From an uncultured Lachnospiraceae bacterium (GTDB taxonomy: Bacteria > Bacillota > Clostridia > Lachnospirales > Lachnospiraceae), in assembly GCA_902779395.1 (NCBI GenBank), contig CACZBK010000014.1:41027-105026 (forward strand): a stretch of 64,000 nt of DNA. The letters run 5' to 3'. Every line of letters starts with the position of its first letter. Within the stretch, counting starts at the first letter, position 1. Both the position numbers and the translations under genes were made by a program. This document shows positions 6,838 to 64,000 of this stretch, in pieces. The notes below the pieces were generated by a model that saw only the letters and a program-made list of their open reading frames with translations, was not told the origin of the DNA and made no database searches.

Positions 6838-6860
6838 ATGCCCCGTCAAAAGCGGGGCAT
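6838..6860 (-). promoter_or_regulatory. Terminator-like hairpin between rpsB and tsf
   Basis: An 8-bp perfect stem (ATGCCCCG and CGGGGCAT) with a 7-nt loop, followed on the minus strand by UUUGUUUAG. As tsf lies behind it, it probably attenuates or protects the rpsB mRNA and does not fully stop transcription. Confidence 0.5.
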
Positions 6861-6885
6861 CTGAAACGACATTCACATTTAATGC

Positions 6886-7647: not shown

Positions 7648-7747
7648 TTTATTTTCCTCCGTTTGGGTTATTCTTCCCTGCAGTAAACGGTTAAGTACTG
7701 CGCACCGCACCGAAACTATCCGCAGGTGATTATTTTACAGCCCGTAT

Positions 7748-7776
7748 ATATTAACATGACCGGGCTGATAATGCAA
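7748..7776 (-). promoter_or_regulatory. Sigma-A-type promoter for rpsB-tsf
   Basis: TTGCAT (7771-7776), 17-nt spacer, TAATAT (7748-7753) on the minus strand, about 100 nt upstream of rpsB. The promoter is embedded in a 7-bp inverted repeat, CAGCCCG and CGGGCTG, which flanks the -10 element and could be an operator or part of the leader. Confidence 0.65.
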
Positions 7777-7810
7777 GATGTATTTTTTATATTGCAGGAT
7801 AAAGTTTTCT

Positions 7811-7843
7811 GTTACTATCACGCCCTCAGGCCGTGATAGTAAC
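7811..7843. terminator. 12-bp hairpin downstream of the TPR-like gene
   Basis: Perfect arms GTTACTATCACG (7811-7822) and CGTGATAGTAAC (7832-7843) with a 9-nt loop, 7 nt after the stop of the gene ending at 7850. There is no U-run on the minus strand, so it may be an RNA 3'-end stabiliser or a weak terminator. It separates the long upstream transcript from the rpsB promoter. Confidence 0.5.
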
Positions 7844-7849
7844 GGCTTT

Positions 7850-10446: not shown

Positions 10447-11626
10447 TGCTGCCCTTTTCCGCCAGCGGCGGTTCATCAAGTGTCCGCTTAAATACCGTGT
10501 ACGTAAACCATGCAAAAACAAAAAGCTCTATAAATCCGTCTTCCCTGTACAGCCCGTTTGCATGTACCAGAAACGGTGCGTAGCACATAAAGCTGAAAAA
10601 AGCAGAAAAGACTGCAAACTTTATGTAACGCTTATCCAGAAATGCCAGGACTATTATGATGATATCCAGAGGATAAGCATAACGGTCATGCATGGCGGGA
10701 AGAAAAAATATACAGGTCCATACAAAATAAGAAAGCGCCGAGAAATACTGATCCGGAGTATCGATCTTCTTTGCTTTATCAAGTATTAGATAAAAACCGA
10801 CCGCGCACAGCGACAGAGTAAGTATTATCGCAAAACGCCCGAAATCATTATATTCGTTTCCGAATACCAGCCAGATACTCCTTGAACACATATACATGCT
10901 CTGATATGTGGATGTCTGCTCAAGATAAACCTTAAACGGCGCCAGAAGATCCCGGCCGAAGATATAAGCCACACTGCCGCTGAGCCAGAAAGATATGAGT
11001 GAAACAAGAAACATTGCTATGCTGAAACGCTTCTTAACAAAATAAACTGCCAGAAAAAAAGGAAGTACAAATACCGTCTGGAGCTTAAGTGCAAATGACA
11101 GCCCCAGAAAAACAAAAGCCGGTATGTTTTTCCCTTTGTATAAAAGGCATACCGCCATCAGTATGCAGAAAGCATACATGGAATCACACTGCCCCCAGTA
11201 TGCGGAGTTAAGGACTACCGTAGGCAGCAATATGATAACGGAATAGACTGTATTAAAAAGCCTGCCCCATTTGGGAACGCCTTTAAATTCACAGACATAA
11301 TAAGCGGCAGCCAGTGCCAGTCCGATATCAAAAACACATGATAATGCTTTATACATCGTCATGGGATTAAGAGGTATATATGTCATCAGAGCGATAAAAG
11401 TCTGATACAGTATATTATAATCACCGATCTGCTCCTTAAGGCCGTGCAGTCCTCCTGCATCCTGCATCTGTTCAAACCAGCTGAGCAGAAAAGTATCCAT
11501 ATCTCCGGAAAGAAAATGCCTGCCTATTAACCTGATATAAAAAGCAACTGCGGATATGGCGATAAAATATAATAATGACAGATGTTTTTCTATGAACTCC
11601 GTCAGTTTTTTTTCAATCTTCGGCAT
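10436..11626 (-). CDS. GT-C-type membrane glycosyltransferase (mannosyltransferase-like)
   Basis: A 396-residue protein with about ten membrane segments. It looks like a GT-C glycosyltransferase, enzymes that use polyprenyl-phosphate sugars on the outer face of the membrane: an early acidic SGDMDTFL loop after the first helix (the usual place of the catalytic Asp), an NSAYWGQCDSMYAF loop, FALKLQTVFVLPFF, and a late HDRYAYPLDI motif. Close relatives are annotated as mannosyltransferases or DUF2029-like, but the sugar cannot be read from sequence. ATG at 11626 follows AAAGGAA, 5 nt after the transglutaminase gene; it overlaps the next gene by 11 nt. It may glycosylate the neighbouring secreted Thr/Pro-rich or transglutaminase proteins, or a cell-wall polymer (inference). 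Confidence 0.75.
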   Translation of the reverse strand: MPKIEKKLTEFIEKHLSLLYFIAISAVAFYIRLIGRHFLSGDMDTFLLSWFEQMQDAGGLHGLKEQIGDYNILYQTFIALMTYIPLNPMTMYKALSCVFDIGLALAAAYYVCEFKGVPKWGRLFNTVYSVIILLPTVVLNSAYWGQCDSMYAFCILMAVCLLYKGKNIPAFVFLGLSFALKLQTVFVLPFFLAVYFVKKRFSIAMFLVSLISFWLSGSVAYIFGRDLLAPFKVYLEQTSTYQSMYMCSRSIWLVFGNEYNDFGRFAIILTLSLCAVGFYLILDKAKKIDTPDQYFSALSYFVWTCIFFLPAMHDRYAYPLDIIIIVLAFLDKRYIKFAVFSAFFSFMCYAPFLVHANGLYREDGFIELFVFAWFTYTVFKRTLDEPPLAEKGSNGR

Positions 11627-49997: not shown

Positions 49998-50013
49998 TAT
50001 GCTCATATCTATT

Positions 50014-50041
50014 ATATCGGACATAACGGGCCGAAACTGTA
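50014..50041 (-). promoter_or_regulatory. Sigma-28-like motif upstream of flgB
   Basis: TACA (50038-50041), 16-nt spacer, TCCGATAT (50014-50021). The -10 part is identical to the motif upstream of fliK; the -35 has one mismatch to TAAA. It lies just downstream of the sigma-A -10, like the sigma-D promoter of the Bacillus fla/che operon. Confidence 0.4.
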
Positions 50042-50047
50042 ACAACT

Positions 50048-50075
50048 ATTATATAATATTTTAGAAAAATTACAA
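50048..50075 (-). promoter_or_regulatory. Sigma-A-type promoter of the fla/che operon
   Basis: TTGTAA (50070-50075), 16-nt spacer, TATAAT (50048-50053) on the minus strand. The start would be near 50041, giving a leader of about 145 nt before flgB. The spacer contains the CodY-like site. Confidence 0.6.
50056..50070 (-). promoter_or_regulatory. Possible CodY box within the fla/che promoter
   Basis: ATTTTTCTAAAATAT matches the CodY consensus AATTTTCWGAAAATT at 11 of 15 positions and sits between the -35 and -10. A CodY protein is encoded by the gene just upstream, and CodY represses the fla/che operon in Bacillus. A/T-rich DNA gives such matches by chance, so the confidence is low. Confidence 0.35.
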
Positions 50076-50105
50076 GATGATTTTATGTAAACCGTTTCAG
50101 ATGCC

Positions 50106-50136
50106 TTAACATCTGCCGGCCAAAGTTAGATGTTAA
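50106..50136. repeat. 9-bp inverted repeat at the codY 3' end
   Basis: TTAACATCT (50106-50114) and AGATGTTAA (50128-50136), perfect, 13-nt loop, overlapping the codY stop codon. There is no U-run, so codY transcripts may read into flgB. It could be a protein site or an mRNA end hairpin. Confidence 0.5.
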
Positions 50137-50900
50137 AACACCTCATAGATAGAATTATTGATCACCTTCAACCTTGTTCCCTTAACACCTGCTGAGTGGG
50201 TCTCTATGACTCCGGCGCTCTCAAGCTTTCTGAGCGCGTTTACCACCACGCTCCTGGCTATACCGGTATCTTCGGCGATATGCGTGGTAACGATAAGGGT
50301 CTCCTCTTCATCGATCTTATCAAGTATATGTTTGATGGCCTCTTTTTCAGAGAAGGTAAGGGCATCCAGGGCGCTTTTCACTCCCTGCATAAGCCTGTCG
50401 TTCTCATCCGCTTCCGACCTTAAGGATCTTAAGAGCTCAAGTCCCACCACGGTACCGGCATACTCAGCAAGTATGATATCATCCATATCATACCAGCCTT
50501 TGTCTTTATAGATAAACAGACTGCCAAGCCTTTCTCCGCCCGCATACAAAGGCGAAGCTACGGCATGATAACGTCCGCCGCCTTCAGCCACATCCATCGA
50601 AAAGCCCAAAGTCATCAGATTTACATTATCCTGTGTGGATAAAATACCCATAAAGCGCTCATTTAAGCCGGCATCTATGTGCTCACCTACAGAGTGGCTC
50701 AGAAGCTCCTTAAGCAGCTGGACTTCTTCATTTATCCCGCAGCCCAAAAGCTTTCCGCCCTTGCTTATCACGAGCACATTCGACGAAAGGCTCTCGCTTA
50801 AGACCTCACATATGTCATTAAATGCCACCTTGGGAGAGGTATTATTGTGCAAAAGCCTGCCCAGTTTCCGTGTACGGTCAAGAAGACTTAAACTCATCAT
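50133..50900 (-). CDS. codY: Global nutrient regulator CodY
   Basis: GTP- and branched-chain-amino-acid-sensing repressor of stationary-phase genes. The 255-residue protein has the N-terminal GAF domain (VAFNDICEVLSESLSSNVLV, with SMDVAEGGGRYHAVASPLYA), the linker helix and a C-terminal winged helix (IAEDTGIARSVVVNALRKLE then SAGVIETHSAGVKGTRLKV) that is almost diagnostic. The ATG at 50900 overlaps the topA stop (TGA 50897-50899); the next codon is also ATG and has better spacing from AAAGGG. The topA-codY-flgB order is like that of Bacilli. Confidence 0.96.
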   Translation of the reverse strand: MMSLSLLDRTRKLGRLLHNNTSPKVAFNDICEVLSESLSSNVLVISKGGKLLGCGINEEVQLLKELLSHSVGEHIDAGLNERFMGILSTQDNVNLMTLGFSMDVAEGGGRYHAVASPLYAGGERLGSLFIYKDKGWYDMDDIILAEYAGTVVGLELLRSLRSEADENDRLMQGVKSALDALTFSEKEAIKHILDKIDEEETLIVTTHIAEDTGIARSVVVNALRKLESAGVIETHSAGVKGTRLKVINNSIYEVF

Positions 50901-52954
50901 TCATCCCTTTCATCATCTTTGATATATCCGCACTCCGTATCGGCACACACGAGTTTGTTTCCTTTTTTAAGCATTATACCACCGCAGCGGGGACATTTTT
51001 CCGAAACAGGTTTGTTCCATACCATAAAGTCGCATTCGGGTATTCCTTCGCAGCCATAGTATCTGCGGCCTTTCTTGGTCATTCTTACTACTATATCCTT
51101 ACCGCACTTGGGACACAGAACTCCGGTCTTTTCAAAGTACGGTTTGGTATTCTTACAGTCAGGAAATCCCGGGCAGGCGAGGAAACGTCCGTGCGGACCG
51201 TATTTGATCACCATCTTTCTGCCGCAGTTCTCACACTCAACATCGCTCTCTTCATCTTTTATCTCGATGTGAGCCATTTCCTCCTCGGCTTTCTTTACCG
51301 CCTCATCCAGATCGGGGTAGAAATTGGCAATGACCGTATGCCAGTTTGTCTTGCCCTCTCCTATATTATCCAGAAGGCTTTCCATGGTAGCGGTAAAATT
51401 AACATCCACTATTGCCGGGAACTCATCCTTCATCACCTTATTGACTATCTCACCCAGCTCGGATACAAAAAGATTTTTATTCTCTTTAAGGATATAACGT
51501 CTTGCAAGTATGGTAGTGATCGTGGGCGCATAGGTAGAAGGCCTTCCTATGCCAAGCTCCTCGAGCGCACGTACAAGGCTCGCTTCCGTATAATGCGCGG
51601 GAGGCTGAGTAAAGTGCTGCTTCTTTTCTATTTCATTAAGCGTTATCGAAGCTGTCTTGTCCTTATCCGCAAATTCTTTCAGAAGGAAGCTGTTCTGCGC
51701 CTTCTCATCATCGGTATCGGTATAGACCTTCATAAAGCCGTCGAATCTGATCGCACTGGCTGCGGCAGTAAATATGATCCCGCCTGCGGTCAGTTTGATC
51801 GACATTGTATCGTAAACCGCAGCGGACATCTGGCTGGCAGCAAAACGTTTCCAGATAAGCTGATATAGCCTGTACTGTTCCCTGGGCAGCTTATTTTTTA
51901 AGCTCTCGGGTGTCTTGGTGATATCTGTAGGGCGGATGGCTTCATGCGCATCCTGGATCTTTTTATCATCCTTCTTTGCTGCCGCGCCGCCGATATGATA
52001 AGCCTCGCCGAAATTATTTACTATATATTCTTTAGAAGCTGCCAATGCCTCATCGGAGATACGCGTCGAATCCGTACGCAGATATGAAATATATCCGTCT
52101 TCATAAAGCGTCTGTGCGGTACGCATCGTCTTTGAAGTAGAGTAATTAAGTGTCTTTGATGCCTCCTGCTGTAGCGTTGACGTGGTAAAGGGCAGAGGGG
52201 CCTTGCGGGTACGCTCTCCGCGCTTGATCTCCTTTATCTCAAACTTAGCGCCTTTAAGCTTTTTCTCTATCTCTTCAGCCTCTGCACGGCTGTCTATGGT
52301 CTTCTTTCCGTTTTCATCACTGTAGAAAGAAGCGATAAAGCTCTTTTTTCCTGCGCCGGCATTAAACTGTGCCTCTATGGTCCAGTATTCTTTGGGAATA
52401 AAGGCTGCTATCTCATCCTCACGGTCACAGATTATGCGAAGGGCAACACTCTGTACGCGTCCGGCTGAAAGCCCTCTTTTTATCTTCCCCCACAGCAGAG
52501 GTGATATGCGGTAACCAACCATACGGTCCAGTATACGGCGGGCCTGCTGCGCATCCACCAGGTCCATGTCTATGTCACGCGGATGCTTTAGGGAATCTTT
52601 AACGGCATTCTTTGTTATCTCATTAAAGGAGATACGGTGTACCTTTTTCTCTCCTAATTTAAGTGCCTCATAAAGATGCCAGCTGATAGCTTCTCCTTCG
52701 CGGTCGGGGTCGGTAGCCAGATATATATTATCGGCTTTTTTCACTTCCTTACGGAGCTTTGCAAGCACCTCACCCTTTCCGCGGATAGTTATATATTTGG
52801 GCTCATAATCATGTTCTACATCCACGCCAAGCGTACTCTTGGGCAGGTCACGTACATGCCCCTGACTGGCGCAAACCTCATAGGTACTGCCCAGGAATTT
52901 TTTAATAGTCTTAACCTTTGCAGGCGACTCCACTATTACAAGATTCTTAGCCAT
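50897..52954 (-). CDS. topA: DNA topoisomerase I
   Basis: Relaxes negative supercoils by single-strand passage. The 685-residue protein starts KNLVIVESPAKVKTIKKFLG (Toprim, with DPDREGEA), has the catalytic Tyr in GYISYLRTDSTRIS near residue 300, and ends in three zinc-ribbon-like segments with CxxC pairs (CENCG/CPGFPDC, CPKCG/CEGIPEC, CPRCG/CADTEC). I use the ATG at 52954 after AAGGAAAG; an earlier frame start at 52999 is in the leader. It is cotranscribed and coupled with codY. Confidence 0.98.
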   Translation of the reverse strand: MAKNLVIVESPAKVKTIKKFLGSTYEVCASQGHVRDLPKSTLGVDVEHDYEPKYITIRGKGEVLAKLRKEVKKADNIYLATDPDREGEAISWHLYEALKLGEKKVHRISFNEITKNAVKDSLKHPRDIDMDLVDAQQARRILDRMVGYRISPLLWGKIKRGLSAGRVQSVALRIICDREDEIAAFIPKEYWTIEAQFNAGAGKKSFIASFYSDENGKKTIDSRAEAEEIEKKLKGAKFEIKEIKRGERTRKAPLPFTTSTLQQEASKTLNYSTSKTMRTAQTLYEDGYISYLRTDSTRISDEALAASKEYIVNNFGEAYHIGGAAAKKDDKKIQDAHEAIRPTDITKTPESLKNKLPREQYRLYQLIWKRFAASQMSAAVYDTMSIKLTAGGIIFTAAASAIRFDGFMKVYTDTDDEKAQNSFLLKEFADKDKTASITLNEIEKKQHFTQPPAHYTEASLVRALEELGIGRPSTYAPTITTILARRYILKENKNLFVSELGEIVNKVMKDEFPAIVDVNFTATMESLLDNIGEGKTNWHTVIANFYPDLDEAVKKAEEEMAHIEIKDEESDVECENCGRKMVIKYGPHGRFLACPGFPDCKNTKPYFEKTGVLCPKCGKDIVVRMTKKGRRYYGCEGIPECDFMVWNKPVSEKCPRCGGIMLKKGNKLVCADTECGYIKDDERDE

Positions 52955-52987
52955 ATTGCTTTCCTTGTACCCCTTTAAAAATAAGAA

Positions 52988-53013
52988 TTGCGTGTACAAC
53001 TCAGCACACGCAA
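52988..53013 (-). other. 5'-end stem-loop in the topA leader
   Basis: TTGCGTGT (52988-52995) and ACACGCAA (53006-53013), perfect 8 bp, 10-nt loop, beginning at about the expected start of transcription. It may stabilise the 5' end of topA mRNA or be an operator. Confidence 0.45.
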
Positions 53014-53016
53014 GAT

Positions 53017-53045
53017 AATATACTATAAATGGTTTTTAAATGCAA
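53017..53045 (-). promoter_or_regulatory. Sigma-A-type promoter for topA-codY
   Basis: TTGCAT (53040-53045), 17-nt spacer, TATATT (53017-53022) on the minus strand, between the fusion gene's stop and topA. Read-through past codY could also feed the fla/che operon. Confidence 0.65.
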
Positions 53046-53054
53046 GAAAAAAAC

Positions 53055-55547
53055 TCACCACAGTTGTTTCCAGTTATCGGCTTCAAATATGTTATCATGC
53101 ACCTCGTAATACGGCCTTTCGCTGATATCCCACGCATAGTCCACGCCATTTTCATCCAAAAAACGATAGGGAAATTCAAAAGACACACCAACCGGTTCTT
53201 CCTTTGCTCTGCAGTCTACAGGATTACCCGTATAAGGATTGGCAGGATCTTCAACTATTCCTTCCATAGCTATAGCAGGAACATCTGCGTTGGTCATAAA
53301 CTCATCGGATACTGTAAATCCTTCCGAATTAAAATCCTTGACCATAAGGAGAGGGTTTACATATGTAACATCTATATATCCGTCATTTAATGTGATCATC
53401 CCCATATCCTTACCATGATCGGAAACTATGATTATCCTCGTATTATCATATACCCCCAATTCTCTAAGTCTGTCCATCAATCGCCCCAGCTGTATCATGG
53501 TTGACATATTTACGTGGTAATGCTCGCGTATCTGTTCGGAGCTGATACACCCGCTTTCCTTATAGCCACTGTTATCAACCTGTACAGCAGGGACATAGTC
53601 CGGCAATTGCAAAATACATGGAGCATGTGTAGCCATACTTTTGAACATAATAAAGTTTCCATTTGCATTATTATCTGTTTCTGTCAATTCAGGGAGCTTG
53701 CGAAGAGTTGAGTAACTGTTCCAGAACTCCTCATCTAACATTGACGGCTTAGTTATACTCATATACTCCCCGTCCTGATATATACTGCGTGCCAGGAAAG
53801 CAGGAGCAGACCTGAATATACTGTAAAAAACGAAATTTCTGTATACATCCACGTCTATAAATTCATCTGTCTTTGAATACTTTCCGACGGTTTCCATAAC
53901 TTCCGTGCCGGGTAACGGATCATACAGCTGTGCAAAAGGTGTTTCATGATCATCATTTCCAAGCGGATCGTCTGCAACTGTGATGCCGTATCCTTTATTA
54001 TAGAACAGTAGTGGCATTAGCGATAATGCCTCATCCCCTTTCTTCAGATAAGAAACATCCCGTCTTTCACACATGGCGCTCTGTGTATATTCGTATCCGC
54101 CATATATCGGGGCAGCCCCCAAACAGGTACAGCCACCGGTTGATAGCGTGTTAGGATAATATGTAAATCCGTCAAACGCTGCTTTAAGCTCCGGCTTTTC
54201 CTCAAGTATATAAGGTATGAAACTGTTTATCGCCCGGTCGATCATGATAACCATAACATTCTTTCCTTCAGATGACATCTTGATAACAGCCTGATCATCT
54301 TCCTGATGAGCCACCTGCGGTTCAGCTTTTATCTTTTGTATTTTCCCTGACACATCAAACAGCCTGATCATGATCATAACCAGCATCGCGATCACTATTA
54401 TATTTATAATCTTAGGCAGAATACCTTTTTTTTCTTTCATCATATAAAAGATGATCAAAAAAACACTGAAGCACAGAATGATCGCGATAGTCCAATCATA
54501 TTCAGAATAATATACCCCGTTATCATAGATCAGTTTATTGGAAACAAACCCCTGGTTTCTGTTAAATAAAAGAAAATCACCTATGGAGATCACCAAAATC
54601 GAAGTCATTATAAAGTGAAACAGCTTTTTCCCTTTTGACTCGAGAAATGCATATATAACATTCCCCCACAGCATAAACACTCCTGCGTAGGTAATCGCTG
54701 TCATAAATAAATACCGCCAGGGGGATTCCAACAGCCCGGGCTTATAAAAATCCCTTACAGATGCAGAAATCAGCATTAAAGGTATAAAAAGTCCGTTAAA
54801 TAAAAACAGACCTGTATTCAACAACAATGCACTTCTGTTTTTAACGGTATTATTATGCGTATCTGTATTATCTTTTTTAATTATGACTGTTGTAAGACTT
54901 TTAATCAGCGAAAAGGAATTATTAAAAGTCCAATATAAAACAAGTCCGGAAGGACTCCGGTAGAGCAGCACCAGAAAGATAGAGGCAAGGATAACAGGCT
55001 GTATAAGACTCTTAGCTCCCTTTCCTTTATTGTAGACCAAAGCAGAGCAAAGATTAATTGCAGTCATAAGGATCGGAAGTAAATTGACAGTCAGTCCCCC
55101 GAGCTGTATCAGCGCATCCGGACGCGCAAAGCTTTCGATCCATAAGAAAGACACATCTTCCAAAACAGGCAGATTTGCCAGAAAAGAATATGCCGCCATA
55201 AAAAAAGGGATCTGAAGAAATAATGGAATAGTCCCCTTTAAAGCCATAACCGGATGATAAGATGAGATCCGATAGTATCTCATCAGCATCATCTGACGTT
55301 CATCCCCCCTGAAATTCTCCCGTATATGATCCACCCATTTTTTCATATTCTTTTGTTTATCATCTTCTTGCTCCTTAAGAAACTGGGCTTTGGAATAAAG
55401 CGGAAGCGTAAACAAAAAAACACAAAAACTTAAGCATAGTATTGAGGCAGGGATACTAAAATGAAAAAGCCGTGTAGCAAGATAAAACACGACTTCCATG
55501 GCATATTTAATTGGCAGAATGATCAAACGATAAAGAATCTCAGACAT
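53055..55547 (-). CDS. YidC/Oxa1-like membrane domain fused to extracellular sulfatase/phosphoethanolamine-transferase-type domain
   Basis: An 830-residue fusion. Residues 1-225 follow the YidC/Oxa1 plan: first membrane helix ending TLPLYSKAQ, a charged hairpin loop (KQKNMKKWVDHIRENFRGDE), and the MALKGTIPLFLQIPFFMAAY helix, about five membrane segments. The groove arginine normally four residues before the LP of the first helix is Phe. About five more membrane segments follow (240-400). Residues 430-810 are an alkaline-phosphatase/sulfatase fold: metal Asp in VIMIDRAIN, probable nucleophile Thr near 473 in STGGCTCLGAAPI, and VSDHGKDMG near 707. The ATG at 55547 follows AAGGA at 7 nt, just after the pilus-operon terminator. 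Likely transfers a phosphoalkyl group to an envelope polymer; that is inference. Confidence 0.8.
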   Translation of the reverse strand: MSEILYRLIILPIKYAMEVVFYLATRLFHFSIPASILCLSFCVFLFTLPLYSKAQFLKEQEDDKQKNMKKWVDHIRENFRGDERQMMLMRYYRISSYHPVMALKGTIPLFLQIPFFMAAYSFLANLPVLEDVSFLWIESFARPDALIQLGGLTVNLLPILMTAINLCSALVYNKGKGAKSLIQPVILASIFLVLLYRSPSGLVLYWTFNNSFSLIKSLTTVIIKKDNTDTHNNTVKNRSALLLNTGLFLFNGLFIPLMLISASVRDFYKPGLLESPWRYLFMTAITYAGVFMLWGNVIYAFLESKGKKLFHFIMTSILVISIGDFLLFNRNQGFVSNKLIYDNGVYYSEYDWTIAIILCFSVFLIIFYMMKEKKGILPKIINIIVIAMLVMIMIRLFDVSGKIQKIKAEPQVAHQEDDQAVIKMSSEGKNVMVIMIDRAINSFIPYILEEKPELKAAFDGFTYYPNTLSTGGCTCLGAAPIYGGYEYTQSAMCERRDVSYLKKGDEALSLMPLLFYNKGYGITVADDPLGNDDHETPFAQLYDPLPGTEVMETVGKYSKTDEFIDVDVYRNFVFYSIFRSAPAFLARSIYQDGEYMSITKPSMLDEEFWNSYSTLRKLPELTETDNNANGNFIMFKSMATHAPCILQLPDYVPAVQVDNSGYKESGCISSEQIREHYHVNMSTMIQLGRLMDRLRELGVYDNTRIIIVSDHGKDMGMITLNDGYIDVTYVNPLLMVKDFNSEGFTVSDEFMTNADVPAIAMEGIVEDPANPYTGNPVDCRAKEEPVGVSFEFPYRFLDENGVDYAWDISERPYYEVHDNIFEADNWKQLW

Positions 55548-55558
55548 ATATATATCCT

Positions 55559-55589
55559 TAAAAATCCCCCCGCCGGAAGCGGGGGGATT
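55559..55589 (-). terminator. Intrinsic terminator of the type IV pilus operon
   Basis: Perfect 11-bp stem AATCCCCCCGC (55579-55589) and GCGGGGGGATT (55563-55573), 5-nt loop, then UUU on the minus strand. It lies 17 nt after the PilW-like stop and 12 nt before the start codon of the fusion gene; its tail nearly touches the Shine-Dalgarno of that gene. Confidence 0.85.
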
Positions 55590-55606
55590 CATTTTATTTA
55601 TACCTT

Positions 55607-57478
55607 TTAGTCATAATACTCATAAGGCTTGGGATCGCCGCTGGTTACAGGCAGCTGCTTATCATTTGCATTTATAGGTCCCGAAATCTTACCCATCAGC
55701 ATACTATGCTGAGTAGAAGTACCGTTATCATTTCCTGAAGGGAAATAATATCCATAGCAGTCATAAATGTACTTATAAGGATCAGCGCCGTCATGTAAAG
55801 CTGAGAACTTACACCATACATGAAGTCTAATATAGCCACCATTTTGTACAATATAATCCCAATAATAATTTGCTGCCGTGGAATGAGTAGTTGTTTCGAT
55901 TCCAAAACCGTTAGCCTTATTATCCGTATGAATCCTGGTCAGATTAAAGTCCGCTCCTACATTACCATTCCCTGTAATATCAGGGAATTTAACACAACGC
56001 TGATTACCATTCGTCCCCGGCTTTGCATATCCATCTCCTCCACCACTGAACGGAGACGATGACACCAGATAAGTATAGTAATCATTTCTATACTGCGATC
56101 CATCCAGCTTAGTAGCCCATATGTCTTGTGACTTAGTTACACCAGGAATTTCTTTCATAGGACAAAACTGAAAATTAATAGTCTGCATTTTCAACGGAGT
56201 TCCTATTTCAACTCTGTTGAACACCTCATTATCCCATACAACAGCACTGTTCCATCCGGGAACACCATCACCCATCTTAAGATCATCATCATTGGGGCCC
56301 TCATCTGCATGCAGTTTAAGCTTAAAGGTGTCACTACCGCTATCACTTCCTGCCGCAAAAACAGCGAGATCGATGTTCTCATAGGTGCTGTTTCCTATTC
56401 TCTTATTAGATCCCTGCATGTTGAGCGATATCTGAGCATCCATTACTATTCTTCCATCTGCACACTTATCACAAGTACAGATTCCATCTACGGGAATAGC
56501 ACTAAGCATCGTACCGGTGGTACCAGCTGAAGATCCTCCCCACGAATAAATCGGAACTCTTGCTCCATCATTTACGGGTTGAGTAAGGATCTTAATAGTA
56601 TAGGTCCCGCCAGCAGGGGATTTAGCATATATTATCCCTTCTTTTTCCCATTCCCACTGATTATTCAATATATCCTTGCAGCCAAATTTTGATCCATCAG
56701 GTTCAAGATAATAGATGGTCTCCGTAGCGCTGTCTGCAAAAGAAAAATCAGTATAATCAGCCGGTACAAAACTTCTCAGGTCATATTCATGCAATCTCAG
56801 GACTACCAGATCACAATCCGCAGATGACCCGCTTCCGCCATCCGGCATGGGATCACCACCGGTACCTACTTTATTTCTGAGATAAATCTCACTGGTAGTA
56901 GAATATGAATACTGCTTATTGATCATATTGACTGACAATGTTACTACATCTGCAGTTTTGTAATTGAACATATCATCGCCTGCATCAGCTTCAACATTAG
57001 AATTTCTTGTTACATAAATAGCATTCACACCTTCAGCTAACAGAACAGGGGGTTCACTGTTTCTTTGAAGCATCAGATCAGAATAATTACCCTTTTTTCC
57101 AAGATCCATAGTAGCAGAAGAATCAAAATCAATTCTTCTTCCTATCTTATATGTCACAACTTCATCTGCACCGGTATATGCCCCGGTAGTTTCACTGACC
57201 TTTCTCTCCTTGGTCTTAATAGTGATGACATCTGACTGTATCCCACCTGCTCCGGATAATGCAACCGAAATACCATCTTTTTCATTTGTATTCATCATAA
57301 GGTCAGTCACAGTCTGCACAACCTGCTGCGCATTTTCCTGAAGGCTCACCTCAAAATATCCATCCTTATATATACGCTGGCTGTTGATCATCAAAGCGCC
57401 AACTTCTGCCATAGCCAACAGCAAAACACCTACTGCCAGCAAAAGCTCTACCAACGAATACCCTTTATTTCCTTTCAT
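55607..57478 (-). CDS. Large PilW-like minor pilin
   Basis: A 623-residue prepilin-type protein. It has a short basic leader (MKGNKG), cleavage expected after Gly6, then YSLVELLLAVGVLLLAMAEV with Glu at +5, the class III/type IV prepilin signature. Residues 20-210 resemble PilW/GspJ (a QENAQQVVQTVTDLMMNTN helix, VVTYKIGRRIDF). The remaining 400 residues are beta-rich, with a CTCDKC pair and Gly/Asp/Asn-rich segments, and no known domain. ATG at 57478 follows AAAGGAG. Last gene of the pilus operon. It is far larger than usual PilW (about 250-350) and may be a tip adhesin, by inference. Confidence 0.8.
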   Translation of the reverse strand: MKGNKGYSLVELLLAVGVLLLAMAEVGALMINSQRIYKDGYFEVSLQENAQQVVQTVTDLMMNTNEKDGISVALSGAGGIQSDVITIKTKERKVSETTGAYTGADEVVTYKIGRRIDFDSSATMDLGKKGNYSDLMLQRNSEPPVLLAEGVNAIYVTRNSNVEADAGDDMFNYKTADVVTLSVNMINKQYSYSTTSEIYLRNKVGTGGDPMPDGGSGSSADCDLVVLRLHEYDLRSFVPADYTDFSFADSATETIYYLEPDGSKFGCKDILNNQWEWEKEGIIYAKSPAGGTYTIKILTQPVNDGARVPIYSWGGSSAGTTGTMLSAIPVDGICTCDKCADGRIVMDAQISLNMQGSNKRIGNSTYENIDLAVFAAGSDSGSDTFKLKLHADEGPNDDDLKMGDGVPGWNSAVVWDNEVFNRVEIGTPLKMQTINFQFCPMKEIPGVTKSQDIWATKLDGSQYRNDYYTYLVSSSPFSGGGDGYAKPGTNGNQRCVKFPDITGNGNVGADFNLTRIHTDNKANGFGIETTTHSTAANYYWDYIVQNGGYIRLHVWCKFSALHDGADPYKYIYDCYGYYFPSGNDNGTSTQHSMLMGKISGPINANDKQLPVTSGDPKPYEYYD

Positions 57479-57522
57479 CTTTTTTCTCCTTTCCTGCTAT
57501 AAACAATGGCACAAATGCTGTC

Positions 57523-58071
57523 TTAGCTGTCTCCGCCCTCTCCACCTTCACCTTCGGGAGGAGCAATGAATTCCCCGCACTCTATAGCTCCGGTTTCTTT
57601 ATATACAACTACCTTATACATCTTCGTCCCGCTGGATAAAACAAAATAGTTTCCTGTCGTACGCACATCTCCGGCCATTTTTAACCTGCCGTTAGTATTA
57701 AAAACAATCGTAGCTCCGTTAGATGTATCGCTAACCGCAGGAGCAGTATCAAGCCCCGAATTCACCACTACTCCGGAACCGCTTATCATCACTGTCTCCT
57801 CCGCAGCAGACCCCTCTCCTATGATTGCATAACAAACTCCACCATCCACATCAAGTTTTATCACTCCTGCAGCCTGACCTTTACTCATTGCATTAGTTTT
57901 TGCCTGACGCAAAACGTTTTCCAATCTCTTCGCTGATTTAGTTACACTGTTATTAGTGATCAAGCTGTATGAAAAAAGCATAAACACGACTATAAGCGCC
58001 GACAAGGCTAAAACAATTATCAGCTCAACCAACGTAAAACCTTTATTTCCTATTAATTTTCTTTTTCTCAT
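57523..58071 (-). CDS. FimT/GspH-like minor pilin
   Basis: A 182-residue prepilin: leader MRKRKLIGNKG, cleavage after Gly11, then FTLVELIIVLALSALIVVFM with Glu at +5, followed by a helix (SAKRLENVLRQAKTNAMSKG) typical of FimT/GspH, and a beta domain. The C-terminal end is Gly/Glu-rich (PPEGEGGEGGDS). ATG at 58071 follows GGAGGAG; 12 nt after the PilX-like gene and 44 nt before the PilW-like gene. In pilus systems such minor pilins prime assembly or bind DNA. Confidence 0.85.
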   Translation of the reverse strand: MRKRKLIGNKGFTLVELIIVLALSALIVVFMLFSYSLITNNSVTKSAKRLENVLRQAKTNAMSKGQAAGVIKLDVDGGVCYAIIGEGSAAEETVMISGSGVVVNSGLDTAPAVSDTSNGATIVFNTNGRLKMAGDVRTTGNYFVLSSGTKMYKVVVYKETGAIECGEFIAPPEGEGGEGGDS

Positions 58072-58083
58072 AAAGGCTCCTCC

Positions 58084-59670
58084 TTAATCCTTGGTCCAGT
58101 TAAATACTGAGATAACCGGCTGGATTGAAGCATCAGCATCACCACCGGCAGCGCCTTTAAACTCGCGAAGAGTTTTATTCATATCCTTATCAAAAAAATT
58201 ATCAAACGCACAATAATTGTTCTGTTTATTTGCTTTATCATAGTAATATGGTTTACTGTCAGCATCATTGGTATATTTAACAAGTGTGGTACCACCCAGT
58301 TTAAACTCTTTGGGATTAGATGTAGCCTGAAGCTGAGTCACATTTGAGCCATTACCTATAAGGTTATATCCGCCCTCACCATTATGATTTACAAAAAGTT
58401 TTCTGGCCGCTTCAAAATGATCATCATCCATGGTTCCCCAAGCGAAACCTTTCGCCTGAATACCGATAGTAACACAACCTTTGCCCGATGCGTCAAGATA
58501 AAGGCAATTATTAAACACACCCTGCATTTTAGATATCGCACCATAGCCTATAAACATAGTATTGTTATACGTTTCTCCACCGGAGATTGTAGAATCACCA
58601 TTTAAGTCAAAAGGTGTATATCTGGCACTGGCTTCTATATCCTTTCCCTTAACACTGACTGTCCCCGTGACCGTAGGATGTGAGTAATGATGCCATACAA
58701 ATTTCTCCTTGTACTCATATTGTGTATATGCTTTATCATCACCATTATAATACATATGCATCTGTTTAGCAAAAAGTTTATTACATAAGCCGTCGGCATA
58801 CTTGTCGTAATTCTCCCACTTAACGCCACCACTTCCTTTATAGGATCCGGTGCCTACTTCCCTGTATGTTCCGGTGACACCGTCACGGCAGTATACATCA
58901 CCACCCATTATCACTTCCCCGGTTCCGTTGATATTCAACGCACCTCTGATATAAGTAGTACCATGTAAGTAAAGTACCGCCCCGTCTGCAACAGTTATAT
59001 CGCCTTCAAAGAAATTGAAATTTCCCATAAAGGTAACCACAGATTTGGATCCAAGTCTTAAAGCATCACTACCCAAAGAATCGTTTTTTCTTACATATAT
59101 ATCACCGCCAAAATACTGGCTGCTCATTTCTATAGATAAGGGACTATCCATCAATATACTGAAATCATTAACTTTCGCAGGTGCATCAGTAGTTGCCGGG
59201 AAACCAAGTGCAATATCCGTTACTATATTACTCTCATATCCGGCTTCATTAGTTGTTGTAAGCTTAACACCCTTTAAATATATATAATTTGCTGTTTCAA
59301 CATATGACGGAATAGTATTGTCGTAAATACAGCTTACCTCGACATCTGCTATACCCGGAACTTTACCAGTATTTATCAAATGCTCCAGAGCATCATCATC
59401 GAACTGATTGGAAGACCCTTTCTGGAGAAGAGTCTTCATAGTTGTTCTGGGCGTAGTAGATGAATAACTAATCTGCTTGATCTGCGCCAACATATCACTC
59501 AAAGCATATTCATCAGTATAAAAATTATCCGAAGCTCTCTGACGCATCCCTTTCATCTTAAAATTCACGGTAGACATATACAACAATGAACTTGCCAGGA
59601 TTGCTATAAACAATATACCTATCAATACTGCAACAAGAGCCGCTCCTCTATTGTTCTTTATTATCTTCAT
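58084..59670 (-). CDS. PilX-like membrane-anchored pilus protein with bactofilin-like segment
   Basis: A 528-residue protein starting MKIIKNNRGAALVAVLIGIL, the PilX-type start with Arg-Gly before a hydrophobic helix but without the Glu at +5. A helix (GMRQRASDNFYTDEYALSDM) follows. Residues about 190-270 are a run of short beta turns (NFNFFEGDITVADGAVLYLH, GTTYIRGALNINGTGEVIMG) like a bactofilin or beta-helix. The rest is beta-rich, Asn/Gly/Tyr-rich and unrecognised. ATG at 59670 follows AGGAGG. It is unusually large for PilX (about 150-200) and may expose an adhesive or structural region at the pilus tip. Confidence 0.75.
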   Translation of the reverse strand: MKIIKNNRGAALVAVLIGILFIAILASSLLYMSTVNFKMKGMRQRASDNFYTDEYALSDMLAQIKQISYSSTTPRTTMKTLLQKGSSNQFDDDALEHLINTGKVPGIADVEVSCIYDNTIPSYVETANYIYLKGVKLTTTNEAGYESNIVTDIALGFPATTDAPAKVNDFSILMDSPLSIEMSSQYFGGDIYVRKNDSLGSDALRLGSKSVVTFMGNFNFFEGDITVADGAVLYLHGTTYIRGALNINGTGEVIMGGDVYCRDGVTGTYREVGTGSYKGSGGVKWENYDKYADGLCNKLFAKQMHMYYNGDDKAYTQYEYKEKFVWHHYSHPTVTGTVSVKGKDIEASARYTPFDLNGDSTISGGETYNNTMFIGYGAISKMQGVFNNCLYLDASGKGCVTIGIQAKGFAWGTMDDDHFEAARKLFVNHNGEGGYNLIGNGSNVTQLQATSNPKEFKLGGTTLVKYTNDADSKPYYYDKANKQNNYCAFDNFFDKDMNKTLREFKGAAGGDADASIQPVISVFNWTKD

Positions 59671-59705
59671 AGATCATATCCTCCTATGCTTATATCCATC
59701 AACAC

Positions 59706-60656
59706 TTACTTATTAATGCTCTTATTAAGTATCCCGCTGGTTACTTTTGCAGCAGGAGCTCCTTCTAATCTTCCTGTATCAGGATCAAATCTACCGATCC
59801 ATCTGTGGCTCATTGCATCATAATGATACTCATAAACCTTTACAGTAACTTCATAGGAGAAATACTTGTGGCATGTCTCACCAGTCTTATTTCTTGCAAG
59901 TGTGCCCGGATACTGTGATCTTGGTACAAACGTAACGGTTGCATCAAAATAGCGGTTTTCTCTTTCGATACGGCTATAGAACATATACGCCAGCTTAGGT
60001 ATGCCTTTGGACACAGCATCCGGTGCCGGATACATATCCGAGCTGAATCCAAAATACAATAATTTGTCATAAGGATTTGCATCATACAAGGACTGATCCT
60101 TATCCACATACGCTGTAAACAGATCTGAAACTTCTTTAATCGCCTCCCAGCACATTTCCTGATCATCAAGATTCTCACAGGAAATCGGGAAACAATCATC
60201 AGATGCTGTATATGTAGTAGCATAACTCCCTGTATAATCCCCGTCACTAGCAGGATCTGAACTGTTTAAAAGTTTCTTGGTCGCATCTCCCTGCGCCGGG
60301 CTGGGTCCCACATGTCCCAGATTATACCAATTACCATCCATACTAGAGAAGGCGAGCCTGGAGCTGGAATTAATATCTCCCACCGAAGAATTGAATCCGG
60401 AAGGTGAAGAAATCAGTGCTTTAACGACTTCCTCATAGGTTTTTCCTCTTATACCTTCCATGATAGTATTGGCAACATCGGTTGCTATCATAGTATCGCG
60501 GCTCTTTTTGTTCACTTTAACAGATGTAACGAATGAACGCATGAGTGGTGCTACTATAATAGCAAACAAACCAAGCGCTACCAACACCTCAACCAAAGTA
60601 ACACCTTTTGAATTTCTGATCTTTTTTTTGTTCATCAAGTTTTTTTCTTTTTTCAT
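59706..60656 (-). CDS. PilV-like minor pilin
   Basis: A 316-residue prepilin. A long basic leader (MKKEKNLMNKKKIRNSKG) precedes VTLVEVLVALGLFAIIVAPL with Glu at +5; cleavage is expected after Gly18. The SRDTMIATDVANTIMEGIRG helix matches PilV/GspI. A beta-rich, Tyr-rich globular part follows. ATG at 60656 follows AAAGGAGGAG; an earlier frame start at 60698 would place the leader inside the upstream palindrome region. It precedes the PilX-like gene by 35 nt. Confidence 0.82.
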   Translation of the reverse strand: MKKEKNLMNKKKIRNSKGVTLVEVLVALGLFAIIVAPLMRSFVTSVKVNKKSRDTMIATDVANTIMEGIRGKTYEEVVKALISSPSGFNSSVGDINSSSRLAFSSMDGNWYNLGHVGPSPAQGDATKKLLNSSDPASDGDYTGSYATTYTASDDCFPISCENLDDQEMCWEAIKEVSDLFTAYVDKDQSLYDANPYDKLLYFGFSSDMYPAPDAVSKGIPKLAYMFYSRIERENRYFDATVTFVPRSQYPGTLARNKTGETCHKYFSYEVTVKVYEYHYDAMSHRWIGRFDPDTGRLEGAPAAKVTSGILNKSINK

Positions 60657-60681
60657 GCGTTCTCCTCCTTTTAAACGCACC

Positions 60682-60707
60682 ACCCTCCCATTGTACAATG
60701 GGAGGGT
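60682..60707. repeat. 26-bp perfect palindrome in the pilus operon
   Basis: ACCCTCCCATTGT (60682-60694) followed directly by its exact complement (60695-60707), in the gap between the PilO-like and PilV-like genes. As RNA it makes a strong hairpin with a small loop but no U-run follows on the minus strand, so it may set the relative mRNA levels of the assembly and minor-pilin parts, or be a protein operator. Confidence 0.7.
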
Positions 60708-60723
60708 AACACATTAAAGCTCC

Positions 60724-61575
60724 TTACTCTATATCACCAAAGCCGTCCTGATCTTCCTCTTCTTCCTCGTCCAGATCTTCCAGATATCTCTCAAACAACT
60801 GGTGTAAGTACAATCCATCCGGACTCAAAGGTCCAAACAGATTCTCGGGATCTAAGCCTCTAAGTTCAAGTTCGTCTATATCCGGCCAAGCAGGAACAGG
60901 ATCCAGCTTTCGTCCCTGTCCTGAAATTGCATACTGCTCGATAAGCATAGAGCACTCTATTTCACCGGTATCAGGATCATATTCAGCTTCAATAGTTTTG
61001 TAGATCATAGGGTCCTGATAATCAAGGATATAATCAAGAGCATATCTGAATCCATCATAAAAACATTTAAATACTATAGTTGAATCATTGATAACACCCA
61101 CAAGGCCATCCACTTCGCTCTCATCAGAAATAGCAATATAATCATTCTCACCGAAGCCTACCGAACCAATAAACACCGTAGTATTATCTTCTATCCCGTT
61201 ATAGCCGAAGCGAGGGGTCTCATCATCCTCATCCTCTTCAAGAGCAAGCATGTTCTCTGCAGCTTTAACAAGTGAATTGTACTCAAGGTACTGAAGGAAC
61301 ATTGTATAATTTTCCTGACTTACCTCAGCCGGGAATGAAGCTATCAACTCATCGCGTTCCTTCTTCATTCTTTCCGTTTCTGCTATATAAAAATCACGGT
61401 TCTTATTCATTTCCTGCAATTCATCAAGTCTTGCCTGAAGGTTAACGTTTTCACCCTTGATCACTTCCGTATCTTCTCTTAGATTTTTCGTGTACAATAT
61501 ATAAGGCAGTACAACCACCGCAACTATCAAGAGCAATAATATTATTTTCGAGTCTCTATCCGAAAGACCAAGCAT
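60724..61575 (-). CDS. PilO-like type IV pilus inner-membrane protein
   Basis: A 283-residue protein with one membrane segment (about residues 9-28), a coiled coil (LREDTEVIKGENVNLQARLD and on), then an alpha/beta extracellular domain with PilO/GspM-like order, and a very acidic C-terminal tail (DLDEEEEEDQDGFGD). PilO pairs with PilN to align the pilus machine. Start ATG overlaps the PilMN stop by one nt (TAATG), with AAGGAGGAG upstream, so expression is coupled. Sequence similarity is weak; order and layout carry the call. Confidence 0.75.
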   Translation of the reverse strand: MLGLSDRDSKIILLLLIVAVVVLPYILYTKNLREDTEVIKGENVNLQARLDELQEMNKNRDFYIAETERMKKERDELIASFPAEVSQENYTMFLQYLEYNSLVKAAENMLALEEDEDDETPRFGYNGIEDNTTVFIGSVGFGENDYIAISDESEVDGLVGVINDSTIVFKCFYDGFRYALDYILDYQDPMIYKTIEAEYDPDTGEIECSMLIEQYAISGQGRKLDPVPAWPDIDELELRGLDPENLFGPLSPDGLYLHQLFERYLEDLDEEEEEDQDGFGDIE

Positions 61576-63485
61576 TACTGTTCTCCTCCTTCCTCAGTAT
61601 CACTTTCCTGAGATTCATTACTTTGAGATTCAGCTTCTTCCTCCATAAGAGTCTTAGCTGTTTCAAAATCTACCATTCCCATCCCATTGCCGATATGACA
61701 TGTGGCAGTGTAAACAACCTGGCGCTGAAGCACAGGCTCAATCTCAGTAATGCCTTCCTGAAGGACCATACCTGTCTCATAGAGCACATATTCAGAAGGT
61801 TCTTCGGGCATCTCTTTCTCTTCATCATCATCAAGATCCTCGGCCGTAATATGTTCTGTCCGAAGCTCACCATCGCCGATAGTATCATCTTCTTCATCTT
61901 CAGGAGTATAATTCTCTTTAAGATAAATCGGGTTACCTTCCTCATCATAACCGATTATGATTATATATCTCCACTGATCCTCTATACTTGGAATATAGAG
62001 ATTGCTCACATAATCCAATTTAGACAACTGAAGCAGCACATCCGCAACTTCGTTCTTTGCTGTGTCATGCCATCCGCTGGTGAGTTCAAAAGTAACATCA
62101 CCATCATTAACAGTAATTTTCGATATGGCTGAATCCTTTGGCAACAGCCTCTCAAGGTCATCTATGAAGCGAACAAAAAACTCACTGTCACTGCGTGAAG
62201 AGTATTCAAAAGCCTTAACAAGATTATACTCTATCTGAGCAGCTTCATAAGCCGCTTTAATCTCTTCGATATCTTTAATCTTTTCTATCTCCGCTTCAAG
62301 CCTGGCTTTCTCATCGGCAACAACCTTGTGCTGATAGATTGAAATGCCCGTAAACACAGCGCTTCCCACAAAAGCCACCGCAAAAGCGTACTTAAGATAC
62401 TTAATCAAGTCACTCGACTCAACCAGACTCTGCTTTTTTGATGACCCTATATTCAGGTTCATAGGATCTATGATGGCTCCTATGTTAGGAAGATAGCGCA
62501 ACACTTCTTCCGCAGTAAGCGCCGCCTGCCCTTTTATCGAAACACCGGCCAGAGTATCGAAGTGTTCCACCGGTGCTCCCAGTTCACGCTGAAGTATCTT
62601 CTCAATACCAGCTATGGCAGAACCTTCACCAAATATCTTAATACCCTGTAACAGTTCCCCGGGATTCTTGGTCCTGTGATATTCAACAGCACGACCAATA
62701 CCGTTTACCAGGTACGAAACCGTCTGCGCATACTCATCAGCCGTAACATGCTGATCCAGAAGCGCTTCATTTGAAAGCAGTGTCTTTGCGTCTTTTTCAG
62801 ATATCTTCTTGACATCCATTAGCGCATTGATAACTGCTGTCTTACCATAGTTAACGCTTCGCTGCAGGACCAGAACATGCCCACGCATAACGTTAACATA
62901 GGTGGCATCCTTTTCTATCTGGAGCACCAGATCCGTACGTCCTTCCTGCATCTGAAGAGCCAGCAGCTGGATAACCGAGTTGCCGAAATAATCAATACTC
63001 CTTACATTAAGCCTCAGCTCATCCGCCACCTCATAGTAACCGCGTACCAGATCCATAGGGGCAGCCACCGCTGAAACACGGTACTTTCTGCCATCTTCCG
63101 TCATATAATCTTCCAGGACGGAATAGGCGAAAAGATAATCACCGGATGCACTCATAGGGAAGTATTCGCCGGAATTGGCCTGCAAAACCTGTCCTAACTT
63201 CTTCGTGTTTTTGAAATAGTTGATCTCTACTTCCTTGCTTGCAATCTTCTTACTGGCAATGGTAAATACCACCTCTTTTGCCGTAAACCCTCTTCCGAAG
63301 ATCGCCGTCCTGATAGCTTCGGCAACCGCTGTTACATCAATTAGATAACCATCATTAAAACTCCCGGCCGGAGTAGTTATCTCTGCAGCGTTGCTCAAAA
63401 CTACAGCTTTGTTGTTGTTCTTCTGCATCTCAGCTATACGGATAACATCCGATGAGATGTAGATAGTCAATGCCTTATTGGCCAT
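61575..63485 (-). CDS. PilM-PilN fusion protein of the type IV pilus
   Basis: A 636-residue fusion. Residues 1-340 are an actin-like PilM domain (ALTIYISSDVIRIAEM, VEINYFKNTKKLGQVL, VLQIEKDATYVNVMRG, GIKIFGEGSAIAGIEKIL); residues 365-385 are a membrane segment, then a coiled coil and a PilN-like domain (RFIDDLERLLPKDSAISKIT, LTSGWHDTAKNEVADVLLQL) and an acidic Glu/Asp-rich end. Normally PilM is cytoplasmic and binds the N-terminal peptide of PilN; here one chain does both. ATG at 63485 follows GGGGAGCAGTAGGA. It lies 33 nt after the prepilin peptidase and is coupled to the PilO-like gene. Confidence 0.85.
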   Translation of the reverse strand: MANKALTIYISSDVIRIAEMQKNNNKAVVLSNAAEITTPAGSFNDGYLIDVTAVAEAIRTAIFGRGFTAKEVVFTIASKKIASKEVEINYFKNTKKLGQVLQANSGEYFPMSASGDYLFAYSVLEDYMTEDGRKYRVSAVAAPMDLVRGYYEVADELRLNVRSIDYFGNSVIQLLALQMQEGRTDLVLQIEKDATYVNVMRGHVLVLQRSVNYGKTAVINALMDVKKISEKDAKTLLSNEALLDQHVTADEYAQTVSYLVNGIGRAVEYHRTKNPGELLQGIKIFGEGSAIAGIEKILQRELGAPVEHFDTLAGVSIKGQAALTAEEVLRYLPNIGAIIDPMNLNIGSSKKQSLVESSDLIKYLKYAFAVAFVGSAVFTGISIYQHKVVADEKARLEAEIEKIKDIEEIKAAYEAAQIEYNLVKAFEYSSRSDSEFFVRFIDDLERLLPKDSAISKITVNDGDVTFELTSGWHDTAKNEVADVLLQLSKLDYVSNLYIPSIEDQWRYIIIIGYDEEGNPIYLKENYTPEDEEDDTIGDGELRTEHITAEDLDDDEEKEMPEEPSEYVLYETGMVLQEGITEIEPVLQRQVVYTATCHIGNGMGMVDFETAKTLMEEEAESQSNESQESDTEEGGEQ

Positions 63486-63518
63486 TCCTACTGCTCCCCT
63501 TTCATAGTTGTTTATATA

Positions 63519-64000
63519 TTAATGAATATTCATCATATTCATAATATACAGATCTATCAATTCCTGCCCCCATAGCATAACGATCATCGCTCCGCTAGCA
63601 AGGTAAGGTCCAAAAGCCAAAACATGGTCTTTCTTTCTTACTATCATTGTCAGGCCATGAATAACACACCCCAATACAGCACCTATCAGCAAAACCAGAA
63701 TTATCTTCTGCCATCCCAGAAGCAATCCTAATGCTGCCATAAGCTTCATATCTCCCCCTCCCATAGCCTTGCCTCCACTAAACAGGCCGATCAGAAGAAA
63801 CACACCGCTAACCGCAACGGCCCCGATAAGATATACATACCATCTCTTCAGGTCAAGAAAGATATGCGTTACCCCCAAGGAAGCAATCACGGCATTCATT
63901 TCCGGCGGAAGCTCAAATATCCTGATATCCACAAATGACAGCCCCAAAAGCAGAGTTCCTGTCAATCCATAGATAATCCACTCCCAGCTATACGAATACT
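63519..64000 (-). CDS. Prepilin peptidase (type IV, A24), N-terminus outside window
   Basis: The reading frame stays open to the window edge at 64000, so the gene is 5'-truncated here: in-frame residues before the first possible start read YSWEWIIYGLTGTLLLGLSF. The visible 160 residues hold the A24 aspartic peptidase part: first Asp in GLSFVDIRIFELP, second in GGGDMKLMAALGLLLGW (GxGD motif), with about five membrane segments. It cleaves and N-methylates prepilins such as the three prepilins encoded downstream. The N-terminal methylase/CxxC part cannot be seen. It sits 33 nt before the PilM-PilN gene. Confidence 0.88.
   Translation of the reverse strand, partial: YSYSWEWIIYGLTGTLLLGLSFVDIRIFELPPEMNAVIASLGVTHIFLDLKRWYVYLIGAVAVSGVFLLIGLFSGGKAMGGGDMKLMAALGLLLGWQKIILVLLIGAVLGCVIHGLTMIVRKKDHVLAFGPYLASGAMIVMLWGQELIDLYIMNMMNIH

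Follow-up and report, generated by a model that had tools for sequence, protein, structure and literature searches.

LtaS, EptA/PptA, and GacH combine a polytopic membrane part with an outer sulfatase-fold domain that carries a conserved Thr and metal ligands. In the YidC/Oxa1 insertases (PDB entries 3wo6 and 3wo7 and the full-length 3wvf), the first helix of the membrane core contains an LP motif, the fifth helix contains the motif P-S-G-L-V-L-Y-W, and a hairpin lies on the cytoplasmic side. We analyzed a stretch of 64,000 nucleotides (referred to here as the window) from contig CACZBK010000014.1 of an uncultured Lachnospiraceae bacterium, in which one minus-strand gene (positions 53055 to 55547) joins a YidC-like part (M), with these insertase features and a PF02096 score over the cutoff, to a sulfatase-fold part (E). 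The fusion (M-E) shares its overall plan with LtaS, EptA/PptA, and GacH, and many relatives are accompanied by or fused to a partner (C) of PF04464, the family of the CDP-alcohol phosphotransferases (TagB/TagF type). A plausible although tentative reading of these sequences is that the fusion is a membrane-embedded phospho(no)-group transferase, in which M would handle a lipid-linked substrate and would no longer act as a general insertase. A literature search covering titles and the starts of abstracts, with subscription papers mostly outside its scope, found no paper describing a fusion of YidC to a sulfatase or to PF04464. The components are known and the combination appears to be undescribed within the searchable literature; the protein appears to be neither a YidC nor an LTA synthase.

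The gene and its parts are located in the window as follows (roles of single residues in E are presumed from the superfamily).

53055 to 55547, minus strand: YidC-sulfatase fusion gene (M-E), 830 amino acids, likely start ATG at 55547, stop ending at 53055
54873 to 55547, minus strand: M module, YidC/Oxa1-like membrane core, residues 1 to 225 (PF02096 at residues 35 to 218; matches to YidC structures in PDB)
55416 to 55418, minus strand: codon of F44, at the position of the YidC groove Arg (alignment to 3wo7/3wo6 and column counts)
54348 to 54872, minus strand: linker and five further hydrophobic segments, residues 226 to 400 (hydropathy scan)
53058 to 54347, minus strand: E domain, sulfatase fold (alkaline phosphatase superfamily), residues 401 to 830, predicted to lie outside the membrane (PF00884 at residues 429 to 716)
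54237 to 54239, minus strand: D437, presumed metal ligand (60/60 relatives)
54126 to 54128, minus strand: T474, presumed nucleophile (60/60)
53625 to 53627, minus strand: H641, presumed active-site His (60/60)
53415 to 53420, minus strand: D710-H711, presumed metal ligands (59/60 each, with one gap)

The ATG at 55547 is the likelier start because the frame from an alternative in-frame ATG at 55592 crosses a GC-rich hairpin (55563 to 55589) and because AAGGA lies seven bases upstream of ATG 55547. Residues 35 to 218 matched PF02096 (60KD_IMP; 8.1e-20; 71.9 bits; cutoff, 35), and residues 429 to 716 matched PF00884 (Sulfatase; 9.4e-10; 38.7 bits; cutoff, 25). These Pfam matches and the hydropathy scan below bear out an earlier sequence-only reading of this DNA, which had described an Oxa1-superfamily part, additional membrane helices, and a sulfatase-type C-terminal domain in one frame; the MIDRAIN, GGCTCLGAAP, and SDHGKD motifs that it had listed are also present. 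A profile built from six relatives found solved YidC structures with its M half (1e-13), while its E half found a phosphonate monoester hydrolase (1e-6) and, at 2e-5 and weaker, sulfatases. Against the TIGR03592 YidC model, the fusion scored 80.3 bits, slightly below the cutoff of 84.3. In the hydropathy scan, nine segments reached 1.5 (four in the YidC part and five beyond it), with the fifth YidC helix below this threshold; the fusion likely has ten membrane segments, which would place the sulfatase domain outside.

Relatives of the fusion were detected in 27 of 35 genomes of its genus (E ≤ 1e-10) and in at least 16 of 299 genomes of a family sample that included its own genus and genome (E ≤ 1e-20), often in several copies. 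The searches of the family, the order, and (with a triple-fusion query) the phylum scored two or three candidates per genome, making their counts lower bounds; the M-E genome search covered the taxonomic family, and one further relative (L006; L and G numbers denote our loci and genomes) came from a Saccharofermentans record. This survey, which had been proposed with the sequence-only reading, argues that the fusion is more than a chance event, since relatives recur in genomes of both genus and family. Spread on plasmids was rejected, with no match at 1e-10 in a plasmid collection. Tandem or clustered M-E copies were present at single loci (L006:4345-7176 and 7992-10604; L068, L070, L078, and L082), which points to differing acceptor or donor specificities.

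Conservation was not confined to the catalytic half. Full-length relatives retained D437, T474, and H641 without exception and D710 and H711 in all but one sequence, and seven M columns (P49, Y51, T162, N165, P199, W206, and N209) were equally strict (60/60). Residues 1 to 225 contain 38, and residues 401 to 830 contain 33, of the 78 columns with conservation of ≥93%; M is therefore, judging from this alignment, under strong constraint. Within residues 1 to 400, the sole Arg or Lys among such columns was K216 (57/60), at the end of the fifth helix. In an unrooted FastTree phylogeny of 133 M modules with flagged long branches, the M-E (60), M-C (23), and canonical YidC (50) modules each occupied one side of a branch, with support of 100, 99, and 77, respectively.

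The best evidence that M, C, and E may work together is the shuffling of these same parts among proteins. The order Sulfatase-60KD_IMP-Glyphos_transf (E-M-C) occurs in one protein at L189:435-4043, and the order 60KD_IMP-Glyphos_transf-Sulfatase (M-C-E) occurs at L206:5911-10047 and L207:3211-6936. By homology, 11 single proteins contain all three parts (seven M-C-E and four E-M-C). Ten of these were scanned with Pfam (L272 was outside the scan), and nine showed all three domains over the cutoff; in L274, phmmer alone detected the sulfatase part (458 bits). With the M-C part as the query, a search of the order gave matches in at least 29 of 392 genomes (E ≤ 1e-30), in some of them over C alone. 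We examined 24 M-C proteins, consisting of three triples, L215, and 20 places among the order-search matches listed. A separate E gene was adjacent on the same strand in 7 of the 24, and homologues of head-group activation genes lay within 6.5 kb of 13, six of them PepM, the firmest of a set of related markers that cross-match one another. Across the M-E and M-C arrangements, the C domains were homologous (about 1e-30 to 2e-41), as were the E domains (4e-10 to 6e-6), both in small pairwise sets. At the position of the YidC groove Arg, M-C proteins had Lys (18) or Arg (5) in the 23 that were readable by eye (one was truncated), and a second set of these modules had Lys in all 10 read of 11, giving a basic residue in 33/33 overall. 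Two scanned proteins, one M-C and one M-C-E, passed TIGR03592 (106.3 and 97.2 bits versus 84.3), and proteins of these kinds could thus be misnamed insertases. Unlike proteins of the TagB/TagF type, the C of M-C proteins is joined to a YidC-like module, and its neighbors suggest aminoethylphosphonate or choline-type groups. Two of the M-C-E triples are flanked on both sides by mutually homologous genes that we take to be CotH-like (L207:1369-3198 and 7261-9222; L269:98-1906 and 5980-7917).

Gene neighborhoods point in the same direction. We scanned 77 neighborhoods (L006 included; many end at contig ends) with marker proteins by phmmer; they held 101 M-E copies, of which 94 were full length after seven partial copies were dropped. 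A C-type gene, called by phmmer to one representative that itself matched PF04464 at 1.1e-12, lay within 6 kb of 39 copies and was the immediate same-strand neighbor of 25; the 39 cases involve 32 distinct C genes, one being the C part of the triple fusion at L189. Other genes within 6 kb of the 94 copies were another M-E (31), a GT2-type glycosyltransferase (12), an NTP-transferase type (12), YfhO (10), and the phosphonate genes PepM (5) and Ppd (5), the last two types near five copies; many M-E copies sit among glycan genes. Pfam confirmed neighbor representatives as Glyphos_transf, YfhO, PEP_mutase with cytidylyltransferase, aminotransferase V, TPP enzyme, NTP transferase, pilin N_methyl, and NTP transferase with choline kinase, while the membrane protein beside the L068 fusions had no Pfam match. 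Among the 35 genus genomes, M-E and PF04464 occurred together in 24, M-E alone in 3, PF04464 alone in 3, and neither in 5 (P = 0.007 by Fisher's test, with no correction for kinship; G027, one of the PF04464 genomes, is below the family cutoff). Some M-E and M-C genes have homologues of PepM, Ppd, transaminases, and nucleotidyltransferases beside them, which recalls phosphonyl tailoring (Pnt, with PntC cytidylyltransferases). In the accessible portion of a Pnt-pathway paper (PMC6697681), the later steps by which bacterial surfaces are tailored with phosphonates are called enigmatic, and the words YidC, sulfatase, TagF, and glycerophosphotransferase do not occur; the M/C/E module set is a candidate for these steps.

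For E, we infer transferase rather than hydrolase activity. Using Thr474 and a bound metal, E would remove a phospho-alcohol or phosphonate group from a lipid of the membrane and would pass it to an envelope acceptor, which would be a surface glycan in many relatives and possibly type IV pilins or their glycans for the window's copy. Transfer to such an acceptor is suggested because E, with its conserved site, is likely outside and because neighboring genes are of kinds that make and activate phospho- and phosphono-alcohols. In many relatives, a cytoplasmic C would supply the lipid donor from CDP- or CMP-activated alcohols or aminoethylphosphonate; for the window's copy, which is without C, bulk phospholipid, as proposed for PptA, would be the likelier donor. 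Because M joins a putatively cytoplasmic C to an outer E, something would have to cross the membrane. According to the available text of PMC10491306, YidC, Oxa1, and Get1 scramble lipids in liposomes or in vitro, and nine Oxa1-family proteins scrambled lipids in simulation. Given this in vitro scrambling, passage of the lipid-linked donor would be the most economical role for M, which most likely would let the polar head of the donor reach the outer face.

A more specific version is possible but rather doubtful, namely, a flip-and-transfer machine in which C would load an activated phospho-alcohol or aminoethylphosphonate on an inner lipid, M would carry the head across, and E would hand it to glycans or pilins. 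Its parts are found shuffled as M-E plus C, M-C plus E, M-C-E, and E-M-C. If true, lipid scrambling by an insertase fold would here have a dedicated physiological role; the question of what this test-tube activity does in cells becomes testable with a YidC-like module fused to enzymes predicted on both membrane faces. The sequence-only reading had proposed that the insertase fold is reused as a platform for an envelope-modifying enzyme. Reuse outside general insertion is likely from gene context and the permuted fusions, and suggests that the fold helps to decorate the cell surface, but the argument from a missing Arg, discussed below, did not hold.

The assignment of E to the LTA synthase/EptA group, also part of the sequence-only reading, stood only as far as the fold. 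Membership in the sulfatase-fold superfamily follows from the Pfam Sulfatase match and the conserved Thr and Asp/His ligands. The LtaS profile NF053595 gave no match to the fusion at E ≤ 0.01, leaving its identification as an LTA synthase unsupported; the other two sulfatases of the genome (L003 and L004) matched this profile at 3e-27 and 4e-21, far below the equivalog cutoff. Unlike LtaS, which has Glu at the first metal position, M-E has Asp there, and its membrane part includes an insertase fold; the LtaS-like proteins of the genome itself (L003 and L004) show Glu by eye. No EptA-type N-terminal membrane domain was found, with Pfam at E ≤ 1 giving 60KD_IMP, Sulfatase, and Phosphodiest only. 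One of the two LtaS-like sulfatases (L004:964-3630) has a long alanine-rich and polyglutamine stretch at its C terminus.

The sequence-only reading had placed Phe at the position of the YidC groove Arg and had taken this as an argument against protein insertion. The first part is correct, as F44 falls on the Arg in an alignment to the solved YidC2 chains 3wo7 and 3wo6. In an alignment of 60 fusion N-domains and 50 canonical YidC proteins, this column held 36 Asn, 18 Ser, 2 Phe, 2 Gly, and 2 Gln in the fusions, none of them basic; Phe itself is therefore unusual (2/60). The 21 canonical YidCs found in the genus (L001:1213-2517 and L085-L104), that of the window's genome among them, had Tyr (20) or Asn (1) and no Arg, and the 29 other canonical YidCs of the order (those fetched as loci among 53 genomes matching in the order search) had 23 Arg, 4 Lys, 1 Tyr, and 1 Asn. 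Because canonical YidCs of the genus are also without the Arg, its loss cannot by itself mark a non-insertase; we rejected it as proof of lost insertase function, and it is unusable for telling insertases from non-insertases in this genus. The Tyr or Asn in place of the groove charge in genus YidCs raises the question of how proteins get inserted. M differs from YidC/Oxa1 insertases in its fusion to a sulfatase-fold domain, its replaced groove Arg, its TIGR03592 score slightly under the cutoff, and its separate tree group. The window's genome carries a separate canonical YidC beside yidD- and rnpA-like genes (neighbors named by eye), in agreement with the expectation of the sequence-only reading.

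Several observations weigh against the transferase reading. No C was found within 6 kb of 55 of the 94 copies, some of them cut by contig ends. The window's own genome (97% complete) gave no PF04464 match at E ≤ 0.001, and its copy therefore cannot depend on a recognizable C; G029 and G032 likewise have M-E without PF04464. The hairpin before the start codon makes the connection with pilus expression weaker. All named matches to E were hydrolases (including phosphonate monoester hydrolases), sulfatases, and nucleotide pyrophosphatase/phosphodiesterases (ENPP-type), with no transferase among them, as would be expected if E served as a phosphodiesterase or hydrolase in trimming or recycling the phospho-groups of the envelope. 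We consider such a hydrolase distinctly unlikely, given that genes near many copies are of kinds that make or activate head groups and glycans and that the multicopy arrays would fit acceptor specificity better than recycling. Canonical YidC was detected at E ≤ 1e-30 in 21 of the 35 genus genomes and was not found in the other 14. In 8 of these 14 assemblies searched with Pfam 60KD_IMP, there was no frame of canonical size: five (G010, G011, G017, G020, and G031) had matches solely in fusion-sized frames (621 to 1396 amino acids), and three (G012, G026, and G027) had no 60KD_IMP match at all and no M-E match, despite a stated completeness of 97 to 100%. Because these three are without fusions as well, we read the absences as assembly gaps, an explanation that is unproven; a divergent YidC or replacement by the fusions are the alternatives. 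The last of these belongs to a broader possibility, that M is still an insertase, either as a second YidC that serves the enzyme fused to it or a small set of clients or, in some relatives, in place of the canonical protein. The five fusion-bearing assemblies among the eight would fit this, as would the basic groove residue of every M-C module read and the two TIGR03592 scores over the cutoff, but M-E has no basic residue at that position in 60/60, the three kinds of module form separate tree groups, the window's genome has its canonical YidC, and the three assemblies lacking both kinds point to gaps. An insertase role is thus very improbable.

The remaining explanations, none of which is strictly exclusive of the others, concern what M does for E. 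Prepilins are small single-span proteins that resemble YidC substrates, and PptA is a pilin phospho-form transferase of Neisseria. The groove of M might accordingly dock a protein acceptor, holding the hydrophobic N-terminal helix of a prepilin and presenting it to E as a PptA-like enzyme. Among the matches listed, pilM or the genome's best pilin match is no more than 15 kb away from 12 of 96 M-E copies versus 1.55 expected, or in 7 of 27 genomes versus 1.5 expected (P = 4e-4), with the distance picked after seeing cases and with copies in one array not being independent. A pilin-YfhO-fusion grouping occurs in five loci, and the order pilus operon-fusion-topA occurs in L081 and L161. On a FastTree phylogeny of 95 M-E proteins, pilus linkage (labeled for eight copies within 6 kb plus, by hand, the window and L160) needs six changes and therefore recurs. 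PptA is thought to use phosphatidylethanolamine as its donor, according to the available part of PMC4010543, and such a donor would fit a genome without PF04464. Against docking, 84 of the 96 copies are away from pilus anchors among the matches listed, with many among glycan genes; relatives have C fused to a module of this kind, which argues for a small-molecule route, and the hairpin separates the window's gene from the pilus operon. On balance, we regard pilin docking as unlikely. Less likely still is a purely structural M that anchors E and C or aids their assembly, its YidC origin being irrelevant to the chemistry: LtaS and EptA use unrelated membrane domains, and M-E already has five further hydrophobic segments, but M is densely conserved and has been retained across several architectures.

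The surroundings of the fusion gene in the window are as follows (gene names by eye).

55607 to 63998, minus strand: type IV pilus operon, upstream, with a prepilin peptidase part and pilM-like, pilO-like, and pilV/pilX/gspH/pilW-like genes (homologues in relatives)
55563 to 55589, unstranded: GC-rich hairpin of 11 pairs between the last pilus gene and the fusion start (terminator scan and by eye)
50897 to 52954, minus strand: topA, downstream (ATG at 52954), followed by codY and flgB/flgC, the same order as in L081

The placement between the pilus operon and topA given in the sequence-only reading is correct, with the hairpin intervening on the pilus side. In the terminator scan, the 11-pair stem scored as terminator-like in its full length on the plus strand; on the minus strand, the scan scored stems of 5 pairs only, and a 9-pair stem running into TTTTT was seen by eye. 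Only 15 bases separate the hairpin from ATG 55547, and the fusion mRNA therefore probably begins upstream and passes through the hairpin, which its leader would carry; expression may depend on read-through. A simple transcript shared with the pilus operon is weakened as an explanation by this hairpin. No Rfam element reached its gathering score in positions 50000 to 64000. At the same place, L081 and L161 have the order pilus genes, pilin, C, fusion, topA, and codY, and in L068, three fusions and a membrane protein directly precede the prepilin peptidase gene. In the five loci with the pilin-YfhO-fusion grouping (L074, L139, L143, L157, and L160), several YfhO-type genes surround the type IV pilin gene near the fusion.

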